This document shows, piece by piece, positions 38,318 to 63,057 of a stretch of 64,000 nucleotides of DNA (within the stretch, counting starts at the first letter, position 1; each line of letters starts with the position of its first letter). A program made the translations under genes and the position numbers. A model generated the notes under the pieces. The model was given only the letters and a program-made list of their open reading frames with translations. It did no database searches and was not told the DNA's origin. Origin of the DNA: Leptotrichia wadei (GTDB taxonomy: Bacteria; Fusobacteriota; Fusobacteriia; Fusobacteriales; Leptotrichiaceae). The stretch spans positions 620,001 through 684,000 of the forward strand of contig NZ_AP019841.1 of assembly GCF_007990445.1 (NCBI RefSeq), given 5' to 3'.

Positions 38318-38590
38318 AAGTCATACTAGCCGGGGAGTTAGCGGTGCCCTGTATCTACAACCCGCTTTAGTAGAGGTGATGTCAAATTTGAGGGAAGTTT
38401 TAGTGTCAACGTCTTATTTCAAGAGTGTTGAGAAAATAGTCCCATATTGTAGAGAGTTAGCGAAACGTGTCAGGTCGGGAACGAAGCAGCACTAAGTTAA
38501 TTTCTTTAGGTTTATGGGGTAGCTGTTTTTGAGCTTTTGACTTAAGAAACGGATGGTAGAACGTTTTCGAGAGTTTGACGTATGACTTTT
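38318..38590 (+). ncRNA. ffs: Signal recognition particle RNA, large bacterial type
   Basis: About 270 nt. The 5' end AAGTCATAC pairs perfectly with GTATGACTT at 38580-38588, followed by a T-run that ends transcription. The Alu domain is seen at the 5' side (GGGGAGTTAGCGGTGCCCTGTA ... CAACCCGC, split over its first 50 nt). Helix 8, which binds Ffh, is TGTCAGGTCGGGAACGAAGC followed by AGCAC (38467-38492), with a GGAA tetraloop and the conserved asymmetric AGCAG side. The pair closing the tetraloop is G-C where E. coli has C-G, a compensatory change. With Ffh it targets membrane proteins to the translocon. Confidence 0.92.
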
Positions 38591-54260: not shown

Positions 54261-54455
54261 GGCTAATCTCCTTAATTTATTAAGGAGTATATATGCCATG
54301 AGAACTGCATAAGTAGTAGCGTACTTATGTGAACGACGCTTCCCACTGTTGTGGGGTTTTAAAAACTTTAAAAATATTTAAAAATATTACTTTTTTTGAC
54401 AGATAAAATGTAGAATACATGGTATAATATCTCTGATGAAAGGGAGGTGATATCT

Positions 54456-55700
54456 ATGTATTTAACATTAAAACAACAGGTAAAACATCTTAGTAAAAAA
54501 GAGTTTAGGAATTTAAAATATTTGTGCCATATAGCTAAGAATTTAAAGAATCAGGCTATATACAATATTAGGCAATACTATTTTAAAAATAAAAAGTATT
54601 TAAGTTATAATGAAAACTATAAAATGCTTAAAAATAGTGAGAACTACAAGAAGTTAAATTCTAATATGGCTCAACAAATTCTGAAAGAAGTAGACGGAAG
54701 TTTCAAATCATTTTTTGGACTTTTAAAACTTGCTAAGAATGGACAATATAAGGGTAAAATAAAATTACCTAATTATCTTGATAAAGATGGTTTTACAACT
54801 CTTGTTATAGGTTTTGTTAGATTAAAAGATAATATGCTGATAGTTCCTTATTCAAATTCGTTTAAGAAAACTCATCAGGAAGTTAAAATTAAGCTGCCAC
54901 CAGTATTAAAAGTCAAGAAGATAAAAGAGATTAGAATAATACCAAAACAACATTCTAGGTACTTTGAAATTCAATATATTTATGAGGTAGAAGAAGTTCA
55001 AAGGGAATTAAATAAAGAAAATGCACTAGGAATTGATTTAGGTATAGATAATCTTTGTACTTGTGTAACTAATAATGGAGCTTCATTCATAATAGATGGT
55101 AGAAAATTGAAATCTATTAATCAATACTATAATAAGATGAATGCAAAATTACAAAGTATAAAAGATAAGCAAAACACTTCTCGAACAACATTAAGGCAAA
55201 AGAGAATAGCTAGAAAGAGAAATAATCGTATAGAAGATTATCTTTCGAAAGCAGCAAGAATGATAATAAATTATTGTCTTGATAACGATATAGGAAAACT
55301 AGTTTTAGGATATAATGAAGATTTTCAAAGAAATTCAAATATAGGAAATATAAATAATCAAAACTTTGTAAATATACCATATTGAAAATTAAGAGATAAA
55401 CTAATATATCTATGTAAACTATATGGAATAGAATTTAAGCTGCAAGAAGAAAGTTATACATCAAAAGCAAGTTTCTTTGATGGAGATGAAATTCCAATAT
55501 ATGATGAAGAAAATTTGCAAGAATATATATTTAGTGGAAAAAGAATAAAAAGAGGACTATATCAAACAAGCACAGGTAAACTCATAAATGCAGATTGTAA
55601 CGGAGCATTAAACATATTAAGAAAAAGTAAAGTTGTGGATTTAAGCGTCCTATACAATAGAGGTGAGCTGAACACGCCTAAAAGAATAAGGGTAGTGTAA
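54456..55700 (+). pseudogene. tnpB: tnpB of IStron copy 2, nonsense-mutated
   Basis: Nearly identical to the tnpB at 5064, from ATG 54456 (GGGAGGTGA upstream). A single G-to-T change turns the Gly codon of IPYGKLRDK into TGA at 55383-55385, so the product stops after 309 residues and loses the last RuvC Asp (NADCNGALNI, still encoded downstream). It cannot be an active nuclease unless the stop is read through. The copy would depend on TnpB from elsewhere. Confidence 0.88.
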
Positions 55701-57392: not shown

Positions 57393-57421
57393 TTGATTTT
57401 TTATAATTTTTTTGCTATAAT
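57393..57421 (+). promoter_or_regulatory. Arginine operon promoter
   Basis: TTGATT (57393-57398), 17-nt spacer, TATAAT (57416-57421), followed by a leader of about 270 nt before argC. Confidence 0.85.
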
Positions 57422-57465
57422 AAATTTATCAAAAGATAAATAAAAAATAATCAGGAGGAAGTATT

Positions 57466-57534
57466 ATGAAAATGATAAGAAGGATAAGGGATAATAGAAT
57501 AGCTGCACAATTTAATTATAAGCCCTTGTCTTAG
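57466..57534 (+). CDS. Arg-rich leader peptide of the arg operon
   Basis: A 22-codon ORF with AGGAGGAA 5 nt before its ATG. The peptide begins MKMIRRIRDNRIAAQ and has four Arg codons within positions 5-11, all rare-type AGA/AGG. A terminator lies 107 nt further on, before argC. This is the standard make-up of an amino-acid attenuator (as for trp, his and leu), here for arginine. That it is translated is inferred from the ribosome-binding site. Confidence 0.75.
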   Translation: MKMIRRIRDNRIAAQFNYKPLS

Positions 57535-57584
57535 GTATATAATCATTTTTATAATGAATTTCTATTTTAATAAAAATAATTTTT

Positions 57585-57670
57585 GCCAATGACTTTTGGG
57601 TTGTTGGCTCTTTGTTTTTGTATACAAATATAATTTATTTAGAGCCTTTTAGGAAGGCTCTTTTATTTTT
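57585..57670 (+). terminator. Attenuator: terminator with alternative helices
   Basis: Terminator: AGAGCCTT (57641-57648) with AAGGCTCT (57654-57661) and a T-run. Antiterminator: GGCTCT (57606-57611) can pair with AGAGCC (57641-57646) and so prevent the terminator. A competing helix GCCAA (57585-57589)/TTGGC (57604-57608) would block the antiterminator. These are mutually exclusive. The exact coupling to ribosome stalling on the Arg codons, about 60-110 nt upstream, is not worked out. Confidence 0.75.
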
Positions 57671-57698
57671 AAAAGATATTTTAAGGAGATGATTTTAT

Positions 57699-58748
57699 AT
57701 GATAAAAGCTGGTATTATTGGAGCAACAGGATATGCTGGACAGCAGTTGGTTTGGATATTAAATAATCATAAGGAAGTGGAACTTGAATTTATTTCATCA
57801 CATTCAAATACTGGGGAAGATATGGGAAATGTGTATGAAAATTATAAAAAATATTTTAAGAAAGAATTAATTTCTTTGGAAGAAGCTGAAGAAAATTTTA
57901 AAAATATTGATGCATTATTTTTGGCATTGCCACATGGATTATCTGAAAAAATAACAAAAAAGGCACTTGAAAATGATGTGAAAGTCTTTGATTTGGGAGC
58001 GGATTTTAGATTGGATGATTCAGAAATTTATGAAAAATGGTACAAAGTGAAACATAATTATCCAGAAATCAATAAAAATGCAGTTTATGGACTTCCAGAA
58101 ATTCACAAAGAAGAAATTAAAAATACGAAGGTCGTGGCTTCACCTGGATGTTATCCCACTTCTGCTATTTTAGGCGTGGCACCGTTACTAAAAAATGGGC
58201 TTGTTGATACGAAAAAAATTATTGTTGATTCAAAATCGGGAGTTTCAGGGGCTGGAAGAAGTGCTAAATTGGATTTAATTTATGCTGAAGTTAATGAGAA
58301 TTTTAAGGCTTATAATATTTTGAAACATAGACACACACCTGAAATAAAGCAAGAAATGGATAAATTATCGAATGGGAATATTAATTTAGTATTTACTCCG
58401 CATTTATTGCCGATAAATAGAGGGATTCTTTCGACAATTTATTTGGATGTGAAGGATGAATTTAAGGAAAGTTTGACAGAAGAAAAAATTTATGAAATTT
58501 ATAATGAATTTTATAAAAATGAGTATTTTGTGAGAGTTACTGAAAATTTGCCAGAGATAAAAAATGTGAAAAATAGTAATATTTGTGAAATTGGGGTTCG
58601 ATATGACAAGGAATTTGGGAACATCGTTGTCGTGTCGGCGATTGATAATTTGATAAAAGGTGCTGGTGGACAGGCGGTTCAGAGTATGAACATTTTATTT
58701 GGATTTGATGAAAATGAAGGATTAGAATTTTTATCGATGTATTTATAA
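57699..58748 (+). CDS. argC: N-acetyl-gamma-glutamyl-phosphate reductase
   Basis: A 349-residue enzyme of the third step of arginine synthesis (NADPH-dependent reduction of acetylglutamyl phosphate to the semialdehyde). NADP site GIIGATGYAGQQLVWIL at the N-terminus, catalytic Cys in VASPGCYPTSAILGVAP (about 152), KSGVSGAGR and HRHTPEI with the catalytic His. First structural gene after the attenuator; AAGGAGATG lies before the ATG. Confidence 0.96.
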   Translation: MIKAGIIGATGYAGQQLVWILNNHKEVELEFISSHSNTGEDMGNVYENYKKYFKKELISLEEAEENFKNIDALFLALPHGLSEKITKKALENDVKVFDLGADFRLDDSEIYEKWYKVKHNYPEINKNAVYGLPEIHKEEIKNTKVVASPGCYPTSAILGVAPLLKNGLVDTKKIIVDSKSGVSGAGRSAKLDLIYAEVNENFKAYNILKHRHTPEIKQEMDKLSNGNINLVFTPHLLPINRGILSTIYLDVKDEFKESLTEEKIYEIYNEFYKNEYFVRVTENLPEIKNVKNSNICEIGVRYDKEFGNIVVVSAIDNLIKGAGGQAVQSMNILFGFDENEGLEFLSMYL

Positions 58749-58808: not shown

Positions 58809-60083
58809 GTGATTCATAATTTTTATAAAATTATTAAAAATTATTTATCATACAAAAGTTATATGAAAATAATAGAAAATGGAACAATTACTGATGTTAA
58901 AGGAATTAAAGTGACTGGAATATCAGCAAAATTGAAAAAAAGTGGAAAAAAAGATATGGCTTTGATTTATAGTGAGGAAAAGGCGGTTTCAGCTGCGGTT
59001 TTTACAAAAAATTTGGCAAAGGCTGCACCAATTATTTTGGATATTGAGCATGTAAAAAATAATAATACACAAGCGATTATTGTAAATAGTGGAAATGCAA
59101 ATTCTTGTACGGGGGATACTGGACTTGCGAATGCGAAAAAAATGACCGAGATCGTTGCAAATAAATTAGGATTGAGTGCTGAGGAAGTTTTAGTTCAGTC
59201 CACTGGAATTATCGGAGTTCAACTTGATATGGAAAAAATTGAAAACGGAATTAATCAAGTAGTGGAAAATTTGTCAGAAGATGGCGGAATTGATGCGGCT
59301 ACTGCGATTATGACTACTGACACCTTTGTTAAGCAGATTTGCTTAGAAATTGAGATTACTGGGAAAAAGGTAAAAGTAGCTGGAATATGTAAAGGTTCTG
59401 GAATGATTCATCCAAATATGGCGACAATGCTTTCATTTACTGTAACTGATGTAAATATTGAAAAATCTTTGTTGCAAAAAATGTTTTCTGAAATTGCTGA
59501 CAACACTTTCAATATGATTTCAGTTGACGGAGATACAAGCACAAACGATATGGCTTGCGTTTTGGCGAATGGACTTGCAGGGAATGAAAAAATTGTTGAT
59601 GAAAATTCAGCTGGATATGAAGAGTTTAAAAAGGCGTTATATAAAGTGAATGAAGAATTGGCTAAATTAATTGCGAAAGATGGAGAAGGTGCAACAAAAT
59701 TGATTCAAGTTACAACAAATGGAGCTAAAACGCTAAAAGATGCAAAAAAAGTTTCAAAATCAGTTATCACTTCAAGTCTTTTTAAAGCGGCAGTTTTTGG
59801 TGGCGACCCAAATTGGGGAAGAATTTTGTGTGCGGTTGGATATTCAGAAGCTGATTTGATGATTGATAAAGTTAATATTTTCTTAAAAGCTGGAAATGAT
59901 ATGGTTCAAGTTGCGAAAAATGGGATGGCACAGGATTTTGATATTCCAAAAGCTGAGAAAATTTTAAAGGCTGAAACCGTTGAAATAATTATTGAATTAA
60001 ATGATGGAGAGTTTGAAGCGACTGCTTGGGGATGTGACTTGAGTTATGATTATGTGAAAATTAATGCGGAGTATCATACTTAA
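58809..60083 (+). CDS. argJ: Bifunctional ornithine acetyltransferase/N-acetylglutamate synthase
   Basis: ArgJ moves the acetyl group from acetylornithine to glutamate, making the pathway cyclic. The precursor self-cleaves at the KGSGMIHPNMATML site: Thr nucleophile in MATML. Further motifs: GNANSCTGDTGL, VQSTGIIGVQLDM, DGDTSTNDMA and FGGDPNWGRILCAVGYS. GTG 58809 follows AGGAG closely but adds an 18-residue extension; ATG 58863 (MKIIENGTITDV) matches the usual ArgJ start but has no visible ribosome-binding site. A cyclic route explains the lack of argA and argE here. Confidence 0.95.
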   Translation: MIHNFYKIIKNYLSYKSYMKIIENGTITDVKGIKVTGISAKLKKSGKKDMALIYSEEKAVSAAVFTKNLAKAAPIILDIEHVKNNNTQAIIVNSGNANSCTGDTGLANAKKMTEIVANKLGLSAEEVLVQSTGIIGVQLDMEKIENGINQVVENLSEDGGIDAATAIMTTDTFVKQICLEIEITGKKVKVAGICKGSGMIHPNMATMLSFTVTDVNIEKSLLQKMFSEIADNTFNMISVDGDTSTNDMACVLANGLAGNEKIVDENSAGYEEFKKALYKVNEELAKLIAKDGEGATKLIQVTTNGAKTLKDAKKVSKSVITSSLFKAAVFGGDPNWGRILCAVGYSEADLMIDKVNIFLKAGNDMVQVAKNGMAQDFDIPKAEKILKAETVEIIIELNDGEFEATAWGCDLSYDYVKINAEYHT

Positions 60084-60225: not shown

Positions 60226-61116
60226 ATGATTTCAAATTTAGATAAAGCGAAAATTTTAGTAAAGGCGTTGCCTTTTATAAAAAAATATCATAATAAAACG
60301 ATTGTTATTAAATATGGCGGAAGTGCGATGGTTAATCCTGTTGCTCGGGAACAGTTCATTCAAGATGTGGTTCTTATGAAATATGTTGGAATAAATCCTG
60401 TGATTGTGCATGGTGGAGGGCCTGAAATAAACGAGATGCTTCAAAAAATTGGAAAAGAAAGCAAATTTATTGCAGGAAATCGTGTGACTGATGAAGAAAC
60501 GATGGAAATCGTGGAAATGGTTCTTTCTGGAAAAGTTAATAAAGGAATTGTGTCAGACATCAATAAATATGGCGGAAAAGCTGTTGGTCTTAGTGGAAAA
60601 GATGGAAATATGGTTTTTGTTGAGAAGAAGTTTGTTGAAGTTGATGGAGAAAAGGTTGATATTGGATTTGTCGGAGAGATTAAGGAAATTAATACGGAAG
60701 TTATAAAATTATTGGAGTCGAATGATACGATTCCTGTGATTTCTTCAATTGGAGTTGACAAAAATGGTCAGACATACAATATTAATGCAGATTATGTGGC
60801 AGGTGCAATTGCTGGAAAATTACAGGCTGACAGACTGATATTTTTGACAGATGTTGATGGAATTTTGCTTGACTATAACAATAAACAGACGCTTATTGAT
60901 GAAATCGATGTGGAAAAAGTGAACGATTTAATCGAGCGAGGAATTATTAGCGGCGGAATGTTGCCAAAAGTTACGACTTGCTTGAATGCAATTGAAAATG
61001 GTGTGGAAAATGTTGTTATTCTAAATGGTAAATTGGAACATTCTGTAATTCTTGAGTTGTTTACAGTCGAAGGGGCTGGAACATTAATTAAGAAAGATGC
61101 AAATTTAGAGGATTAA
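60226..61116 (+). CDS. argB: Acetylglutamate kinase
   Basis: A 296-residue amino-acid kinase that phosphorylates N-acetylglutamate. IVIKYGGSAM at the N-terminus, VHGGGPEINEMLQKIG (substrate loop), FLTDVDGILLD, GGMLPKVTTCLNAIE and a terminal EGAGTLI. An N-terminal helix (MISNLDKAKILVKALPFIKKYH, about 20 residues) is typical of the hexameric, arginine-inhibited form, so feedback control by arginine is likely. Follows argJ by 142 nt. Confidence 0.95.
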   Translation: MISNLDKAKILVKALPFIKKYHNKTIVIKYGGSAMVNPVAREQFIQDVVLMKYVGINPVIVHGGGPEINEMLQKIGKESKFIAGNRVTDEETMEIVEMVLSGKVNKGIVSDINKYGGKAVGLSGKDGNMVFVEKKFVEVDGEKVDIGFVGEIKEINTEVIKLLESNDTIPVISSIGVDKNGQTYNINADYVAGAIAGKLQADRLIFLTDVDGILLDYNNKQTLIDEIDVEKVNDLIERGIISGGMLPKVTTCLNAIENGVENVVILNGKLEHSVILELFTVEGAGTLIKKDANLED

Positions 61117-61231: not shown

Positions 61232-62425
61232 ATGTTATTAAATGTATATAGCCGTTATAATAAAATTTTTGAAAAAGGAAAAGGAACATATATTTACGAT
61301 AATGAAGGAAATGAATATTTAGATTTTGTGTCGGGAATTTCAGTAAATTGCTTGGGACACGCAAGTCCTGTGATTACAAAGGCTTTAACGGAGCAAAGTC
61401 AGAAATTGGTGCATATTTCTAATTTGTATTACAGTCAACCACAATTGGATTTGGCTAATAAACTTACGGAAAATAGTAAAATGGAAAGCGTTTTTTTTAC
61501 AAACAGTGGAACTGAAGCGATTGAGTTAGCTTTAAAAATTGCTCGAAAATATGGGAATAATTTGTCATACGATGAAAATGGAAATAAAATTGCTGATAAA
61601 ACAGAAATAATTTATATGAAAAATTCCTTTCATGGAAGAAGTACTGGAGCGTTGGCAGTCACTGGTCAGCCAAAATATCAAAAACCGTTTGAGCCATTGA
61701 TGAAAAATGTTACAGAATGTAATTTTAACGATGTCGAAGATTTAAAAGTAAAAGTAAGTGAAAAAACTGCTGCTATTATTTTGGAGCCAATTCAGGGAGA
61801 AAGCGGACTTGAAAGTGCTACTTCTGAATTTATGGAAGCTATAAAAGAATTGAGTGAAAAATATAATACACTTGTGATTTTTGACGAAATTCAATGCGGA
61901 ATGGGAAGAACTGGAAAATTATTTGCCTATGAAAATTTTGATTTAGTTCCAGATATAGTTACAATTGCAAAATCACTTGGTGGCGGAGTTCCAATCGGAG
62001 CTTGTTTGACAAAAGGAAAAGCAAATGACGTGCTAGTTCCTGGCGACCACGGTTCAACTTACGGAGGAAATCCTTTGGTTTGTGCCGTTGCAAATGCTGT
62101 TTTACATGAATTAATTGACAACAAATTAATTGAAAAAAATGTTGTGGAAAAAGGTCAGTATTCTGTGGAAAAATTGGAAAAATTAAAGGGAAAATTTGAT
62201 TTTATCGAAGAAATTCGTGGAAAAGGACTTCTTTTGGGAATAAAATTTGATGAGAAAAAAGTTTTGGCAAAAGACGTTGTTTTAAAAGCACTAGAAAATG
62301 GATTGTTACTAGTTGGAGCTGGAAATAATGTTGTGAGATTTTTTCCACCATTTAACGTAATAAACGATGAAATTAACAAAGCTGTTTCAATTTTGGAAAA
62401 AGTTTTTGAAAAAATTTCTTTTTAG
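61232..62425 (+). CDS. argD: Acetylornithine aminotransferase
   Basis: A 397-residue class III PLP aminotransferase that makes acetylornithine. VFFTNSGTEAIELALKIARKY, NSFHGRSTGALAVTGQ, LEPIQGESG, VIFDEIQCGMGRTGKLFAYE and the PLP-lysine in TIAKSLGGGVPIGA (about 247); HGSTYGGNPLVCAV. Could also accept succinyldiaminopimelate, as ArgD often does. Position between argB and argF supports arginine synthesis. Confidence 0.95.
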   Translation: MLLNVYSRYNKIFEKGKGTYIYDNEGNEYLDFVSGISVNCLGHASPVITKALTEQSQKLVHISNLYYSQPQLDLANKLTENSKMESVFFTNSGTEAIELALKIARKYGNNLSYDENGNKIADKTEIIYMKNSFHGRSTGALAVTGQPKYQKPFEPLMKNVTECNFNDVEDLKVKVSEKTAAIILEPIQGESGLESATSEFMEAIKELSEKYNTLVIFDEIQCGMGRTGKLFAYENFDLVPDIVTIAKSLGGGVPIGACLTKGKANDVLVPGDHGSTYGGNPLVCAVANAVLHELIDNKLIEKNVVEKGQYSVEKLEKLKGKFDFIEEIRGKGLLLGIKFDEKKVLAKDVVLKALENGLLLVGAGNNVVRFFPPFNVINDEINKAVSILEKVFEKISF

Positions 62426-62514: not shown

Positions 62515-63057
62515 ATGAAAACCTTTAGAAAAATTGTGATACTTTTTCTTTTGGTAAGTTTGATGAATTTTGGTGCGTCGAATATTGAAGGAAAAATTGC
62601 TCAGATTAGGAAAGATTTTGCAAGTACTAATGCTGTGAAAAATTATGTTATTAAGGAAGTTGAAGATTCAGAGCAAAGTACAGATGGTGGCGTTGTGAAA
62701 TATTTTTCGCAAAATGGAATTGTTAAAAAAATTGTGGTTGAACATTTTGGAGAAAGTTGGAATAGTTTGACAGAATATTATTTAAAAAATGGAAAAGTTT
62801 ATTTTATTTTTGATAAAGCTGAAAAATATAATGTGCCATATTATGTGGATTCTAAATGGTATAAAGAAAATAAGCTAAAAAATGGAGAAGTTTTTGATAA
62901 AAGAAAGTCAAAATTTTTTGAACAACGATATTATTTTGATGAAAATGAAAAATTAATTCGGTATATTGGTGAGAATAAAAAAATTGTTGAGAATGGACAA
63001 AAATTGAAGGAAATTGAGAAAGAAATATTGAAAGAATATTATAGAATAAAAAATTAA
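62515..63057 (+). CDS. Secreted protein of unknown function in the arg operon
   Basis: A 180-residue protein with a signal peptide (MKTFRKIVILFLLVSLMNFGAS). The mature part has Gly/Asn-Gly strand repeats (VKYFSQNGIVKKIVVEHFGES, YYLKNGKVYFIFDKAEKYN, KRKSKFFEQRYYFDENEKLIRYI split as needed), recalling MORN-like or antitoxin-repeat proteins seen on the surface. It sits between argD and argF, in the same direction, 89 nt after argD with GGGAG before the ATG. Nothing suggests a role in arginine synthesis. Confidence 0.65.
   Translation: MKTFRKIVILFLLVSLMNFGASNIEGKIAQIRKDFASTNAVKNYVIKEVEDSEQSTDGGVVKYFSQNGIVKKIVVEHFGESWNSLTEYYLKNGKVYFIFDKAEKYNVPYYVDSKWYKENKLKNGEVFDKRKSKFFEQRYYFDENEKLIRYIGENKKIVENGQKLKEIEKEILKEYYRIKN

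Follow-up and report, generated by a model that had tools for sequence, protein, structure and literature searches.

The argC operon of Leptotrichia wadei is very probably controlled by a ribosome-mediated transcription attenuator that senses the supply of arginyl-tRNA, as judged from sequence, comparison between genomes and RNA folding. The leader lies in the window, the 64,000-nt stretch of DNA analysed here, and its anatomy, its conservation, the absence of ArgR and a set of mutually exclusive helices can be read from the sequences and their predicted folds. The initial annotation had proposed a ribosome-mediated arginine attenuator at this site. Conservation of the leader and the lack of ArgR in the family support that proposal, but the predicted control acts on transcription and is not the translational attenuation it had described.

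Anatomy of the leader and its operon

A promoter and a 22-codon ORF with a good ribosome-binding site and Arg at codons 5, 6, 8 and 11 had been described from the sequence alone, and all are present as claimed within positions 57393–57534 (Table 1). Arg makes up 4 of the residues in codons 2–13 of the ORF (P = 4e-4 against a background of 3.2% Arg in window ORFs, in which AGG accounts for 22% of Arg codons). The downstream operon argCJBD-X-argF is likewise confirmed, with argC, argJ, argB, argD and argF recognized by NCBIfam and ORF X giving no family match in Pfam or NCBIfam. Elsewhere in the window, positions 54447–55385 hold a 312-aa ORF of the TnpB family (IS605 OrfB) with partial profile coverage, possibly truncated, and positions 38321–38585 match the Bacterial large SRP RNA (Rfam).

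Between the ORF and argC, all three previously listed helices, GCCAA/TTGGC, GGCTCT/AGAGCC and AGAGCCTT/AAGGCTCT followed by a T-run, are found. The last is a terminator-like stem as proposed; the first, however, is itself a terminator, T1, so the leader contains two terminators. The 1 kb around the leader contains 4 terminator-like sites compared with 0.2 in shuffled sequences, and T1 and T2 rank as the top two such sites over the last 20 kb of the window. The leader RNA as a whole folds with an energy of -63.3 kcal/mol, against -46.1 +/- 4.5 kcal/mol for shuffles (z = -3.8).

Table 1 Features of the arginine leader and operon, in window coordinates.
Feature	Position	Strand	Basis or remark
Promoter TTGATT-17-TATAAT, extended -10 (TG)	57393–57421	+	Sequence; TTGATT/TTGAAA-TATAAT-like counterparts at the same place in relatives, by eye
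Shine-Dalgarno AGGAGG of the leader ORF	57453–57458	+	Purine-rich SD ahead of each homologous leader
Outer 5′ strand of 1:2, includes start codon	57462–57476	+	Folding
Predicted leader peptide ORF MKMIRRIRDNRIAAQFNYKPLS, 22 codons	57466–57534	+	Arg codons 6 and 8 invariant in 17/17 relatives
Putative sensing Arg codons 5, 6, 8 (AGA AGG AUA AGG)	57478–57489	+	Sequence
Region 1, inner 5′ strand of 1:2 hairpin, GAUAAGGG	57483–57490	+	100% of cells paired, 17 sequences
Arg codon 11 (AGA)	57496–57498	+	Sequence
Region 2 (whole)	57521–57556	+	Folding and per-sequence tests
Antiterminator strand (2:3), partner of T1 5′ arm and loop	57521–57538	+	Folding, duplex tests
CCCUUGUC in region 2, partner of region 1	57523–57530	+	Folding
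AUCAUUUUUAUAAUG in region 2, partner of outer strand	57542–57556	+	Folding
Terminator T1 stem-loop (3:4), then T-rich tract TCTTTGTTTTT	57585–57608	+	11-pair stem, 94% of cells paired
Putative relay antiterminator 4:5, GGCUCU (57606–57611) with AGAGCC (57641–57646)	57606–57646	+	Statistically weak
Terminator T2 stem-loop, then T-rich tract	57641–57661	+	Second terminator also in relatives
argC, N-acetyl-gamma-glutamyl-phosphate reductase, first gene of the operon	57699–58748	+	NCBIfam TIGR01850
argJ	58809–60083	+	NCBIfam
argB	60226–61116	+	NCBIfam
argD	61232–62425	+	NCBIfam
X, 180-aa ORF between argD and argF, signal-peptide-like start	62515–63057	+	Sequence
argF	63154 to window end (63999)	+	NCBIfam

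Conservation of the leader and absence of ArgR

Within the home family, argC is present in 17 of 33 genomes, an 18th, marginal match (25% identity) having been left out; given kinship within clades, the 17 leaders amount to about four independent groups. A leader ORF stands at every one of these loci with RIR(D/E) at codons 6–9, and the Shine-Dalgarno sequence, start and reading frame of this predicted ORF are kept throughout (17/17, by sequence). Conservation of the peptide in relatives had been named in the initial annotation as a possible point of refutation. The RIR(D/E) motif of the family, together with diverged Arg-rich leaders in 10 further Fusobacteriaceae genomes, upholds the proposal on that point. 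The nucleotide motif AGGATAAGGGA is invariant across all 17 family leaders. Paired with its downstream complement it occurs in 15 genomes, in one copy each and always at argC; no such pair was found in the argC-less genomes of the family or at any place other than argC. Codon 5 encodes R, K, T or V, with Arg replaced by T, V or K in L004, L005 and L013, and this variability assigns the core to codons 6 and 8. Past RIR(D/E) the peptides differ through divergence, frame changes or early stops, while RNA pairing is retained.

The textbook regulators of arginine genes are ArgR/AhrC and, in some bacteria, T-boxes. The ArgR domain (PF01316) was matched in none of the 33 family genomes, that of L. 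wadei included, and exceeded the cut-off in one of 98 Fusobacteriota genomes, while the same search found matches in 9 of 14 well-known genomes used as a control. On these genome searches, essentially all Fusobacteriales appear to be without ArgR. Membership of the operon in an ArgR regulon was rejected because the gene for ArgR is missing from the family. The sole strong ArgR-domain matches among the 98 genomes (L083 and L086) belong to a genome of an outlying family (G097), where they lie ~250 bases apart on one contig.

Alternative pairing of the leader RNA

The mechanism that we infer, which includes stalling when arginine is limiting, in vivo termination and a relay to T2, would run as follows. 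When arginine is plentiful, the ribosome would pass Arg codons 5, 6, 8 and 11, reach the stop codon and cover region 2, allowing T1 (and T2) to form and halting RNA polymerase before argC. When arginine is short, the ribosome would stall at the AGA/AGG codons and mask region 1, leaving region 2 free to form 2:3 with the T1 5′ arm and loop and to block T1. The 3′ arm of the blocked T1 would then be available to the T2 5′ arm (4:5), letting transcription proceed into argCJBD-X-argF. If the leader were untranslated, 1:2 would form and the terminators would follow by default.

The 1:2 hairpin encloses the Arg codons and the start codon region, and the mate of its outer helix is the sequence after the ORF. 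All 8 pairs of the inner helix, formed by GAUAAGGG with CCYUURUY, are intact in 17/17 sequences. Five of these pairs are constant and three change solely on the 3′ side through pairing-neutral G-C/G-U or U-G/U-A exchanges, as expected if one strand is held by its coding role and the other by the need to pair. Expected 1:2 pairs number 22–27 compared with 7–11 in shuffles (p <= 0.01 in 9/9 sequences tested). Applied to the whole alignment, RNAalifold recovered T1, part of T2 and, of 1:2, the inner helix alone; it missed the outer and 2:3 helices because their registers differ between clades, and per-sequence tests were used instead.

This pattern also bears on whether the leader could be a metabolite-binding riboswitch or a T-box in which the ORF is incidental. 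Such an element would account for a strongly structured leader with an invariant AGGATAAGGGA, and arginine genes under T-box control are on record (PMC1262725); however, the invariance sits in the coding strand while the partner strand varies, the Shine-Dalgarno sequence, start and reading frame are conserved, and Arg enrichment remains where the nucleotides diverge. Rfam 15 at the gathering threshold, T-box included, assigned no family to the window leader or to 14 related loci, and at E <= 10 gave no meaningful match in the leader. We consider a riboswitch or T-box extremely improbable here and retain the attenuator read by a translating ribosome.

The 2:3 antiterminator joins the 3′ part of the ORF and the sequence after it to the 5′ arm and loop of T1. 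Its sequence is unlike between clades (AACCC..GUCA..UGGU, AUUGCU..UUUU and GUCAUGACUAA), and its duplex energy is better than that of shuffles in 15 of the 17 leaders (p < 0.05), with region boundaries picked after inspection of the folds; the duplex was not significant in L013 and L014. A stricter null based on base-pair probability gave p < 0.05 in 4 of the 9 sequences tested. We then folded transcripts cut before the 3′ arm of T1 in three states, with the ribosomal A-site at Arg codon 8, with the ribosome absent, or with the ribosome at the stop codon. The stalled state gives 8–14 expected 2:3 pairs in 17/17 sequences, the free RNA at most 3.1, and the ribosome at the stop codon at most 2.7 in 16/17, the exception being L007. 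These predicted folds make 2:3 mutually exclusive with both 1:2 and the terminator, although it is individually weak in L013 and L014. The stop codon falls 9 to 45 nt past the start of region 2, in a position to mask it, in every leader but L007. The L007 ORF ends prematurely at codon 14, upstream of region 2, and a ribosome at that stop leaves region 2 unmasked; for this variant the model predicts higher basal argC expression. Full-length thermodynamic folds prefer T1 to 2:3 in most sequences, indicating that the switch must be kinetic. Other attenuators likewise switch kinetically.

T1 has 4 pairs with double changes among family sequences. A relay from T1 to T2 through 4:5 is plausible from the modelled folds, since the 3′ arm of T1, GGCUCU, once freed, pairs with AGAGCC of T2 when L011 and L012 are folded in the stalled state. 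It is quite possible, if somewhat short of probable, that T2 instead acts independently as a constitutive or safety terminator, with T1 alone switched and GGCTCT/AGAGCC incidental. By base-pair counts or probability, 4:5 shows no excess over shuffles and is indistinguishable from chance, probably because chance pairing of U-tracts with A-rich linkers blunts this null; in the Fusobacteriaceae leader L058, moreover, the T1 3′ and T2 5′ arms lack clear complementarity by eye. Against an independent T2, the 4:5 duplex outdoes shuffles in six sequences (L004, L005, L013 and L015–L017) despite their unlike sequences, and a constitutive T2, if fully efficient, would shut the operon in both states. 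The GGCTCT and AGAGCC segments listed in the initial annotation are present, but the putative relay between them is the weaker part of the switch, and the better-supported part, 1:2 with 2:3, did not figure there.

Related leaders and known attenuators

Beyond the family, diverged Arg-rich leaders with terminators precede argC in 10 Fusobacteriaceae genomes (G052, G064, G067, G074, G075, G076, G086, G088, G090 and G092), encoding MMFRISRTRRQIKNQYKSF, peptides that begin MLFRIRRMRRNKK, MLIRSSRMRKIKP, MMIKFLKRTSYTRVN and MMLLRNFRIMTK, and others. Four of these genomes (G086, G088, G090 and G092) carry a pair of Arg leaders one behind the other, of which the first is followed by two terminators and the second by a single one. 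Such serial double leaders stand before argC at loci L062, L063, L067 and L137. In most Fusobacteriaceae stalled-state folds the post-ORF sequence pairs with T1; the 1:2 pair count of these leaders is mostly not above shuffles. Five genomes have argC without a leader (L053, L054, L055, L082 and L138), several of them with argC behind other genes. The same detector found a leader at 0 of 17 non-fusobacterial argC loci used as a control; its strict terminator filter flags 10 of the 17 family loci, so it undercounts.

Other arginine genes carry similar leaders. In the home family, a separate Arg leader with a terminator precedes argG in genus g9 (L089 and L094). No Arg leader with a terminator was found within 480 nt of argG in Fusobacteriaceae, and a wider scan found leaders ahead of a transporter gene that precedes it: genera g13 and g16 have an Arg-containing leader and a terminator ahead of a gene for a substrate-binding protein, with argG next in line (L122, L129, L130, L125, L132 and L134). 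The g13 protein scores best, under the curated cut-off, with the lysine/arginine/ornithine family, and also matches ArtJ and GlnH; in L122 and L130 it resembles ArtJ/ArgT. The g16 leaders have only two or three Arg among their first codons. Judged from their sequences, related leaders across Fusobacteriales appear to govern argC, argG and an operon that joins a basic-amino-acid-type transporter to argG.

These peptides also speak to whether the nascent chain (RIR, R-x-R) might itself arrest the ribosome, as SpeFL and macrolide leaders do, by sensing free arginine, ornithine or a drug within the exit tunnel instead of reporting on charged tRNA-Arg. R-I-R with flanking charge is kept in the family, and R-L-R leaders are linked to drug-induced stalling in other systems (PMC8632094), but little other than Arg is common across families (FRISRTRRQ, LIRSSRMRK, LLRNFRIMTK, RRYRRIRSK and MRRILRTQTK), the Arg at codon 5 is missing in the three family leaders named above, and the downstream genes serve arginine synthesis and uptake, not resistance. 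We regard an arrest peptide as very unlikely and favour the sensing of arginyl-tRNA at the Arg codons.

The predicted mechanism is of a classical kind. Like the trp, his, leu, ilv, thr and phe leaders, the fusobacterial leader has a short ORF enriched in codons for the end product, a hairpin over those codons, an antiterminator, a terminator and a stop codon placed to mask region 2. Its alternating 1:2/3:4/5:6 versus 2:3/4:5 arrangement resembles the layout of the his leader. It differs from the classical leaders in its predicted sensing of arginine, in having two stems each with a T-rich tract, in belonging to Fusobacteriota and in its absence from Rfam 15; what is new lies in the amino acid, the phylum and the tandem terminators. 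ArgR/AhrC control turns down the same kind of operon in response to arginine, but the ArgR gene is missing from the family. Arginine T-boxes respond to uncharged tRNA. They share with this leader the control of arginine genes at the RNA level (PMC1262725) but bind tRNA directly. In the Salmonella speF leader, ribosomes pause in response to arginine at consecutive Arg codons of the upstream ORF34; that leader, however, governs ornithine decarboxylase via Rho, RNase G and structure at the RBS rather than through intrinsic terminators of an arginine biosynthesis operon (PMC6386406). The Staphylococcus aureus rbfL leader peptide senses arginine limitation with rare AGA/AGG codons, but blocks translation of a biofilm regulator through RBS occlusion (PMC13009471). 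In the open-access literature we found no earlier account of an arginine biosynthesis operon under ribosome-mediated attenuation.

With modest confidence, we lean towards a broader picture in which Fusobacteriales lost or never had ArgR and place their arginine regulon (the argC operon, argG and the ArtJ/ArgT-like transporter-argG operon) under Arg-codon attenuators. In this picture Leptotrichiaceae would use a relay across two terminators, one lineage of Fusobacteriaceae would have two complete attenuators one after the other, and the whole would form an arginine class of attenuator not described before. These leaders would provide a phylum-level alternative to ArgR/AhrC and T-boxes in medically relevant bacteria of the mouth and gut, supply annotators with a set of unannotated leader peptides, and make arginine a further amino acid that controls its own operon by classical attenuation.
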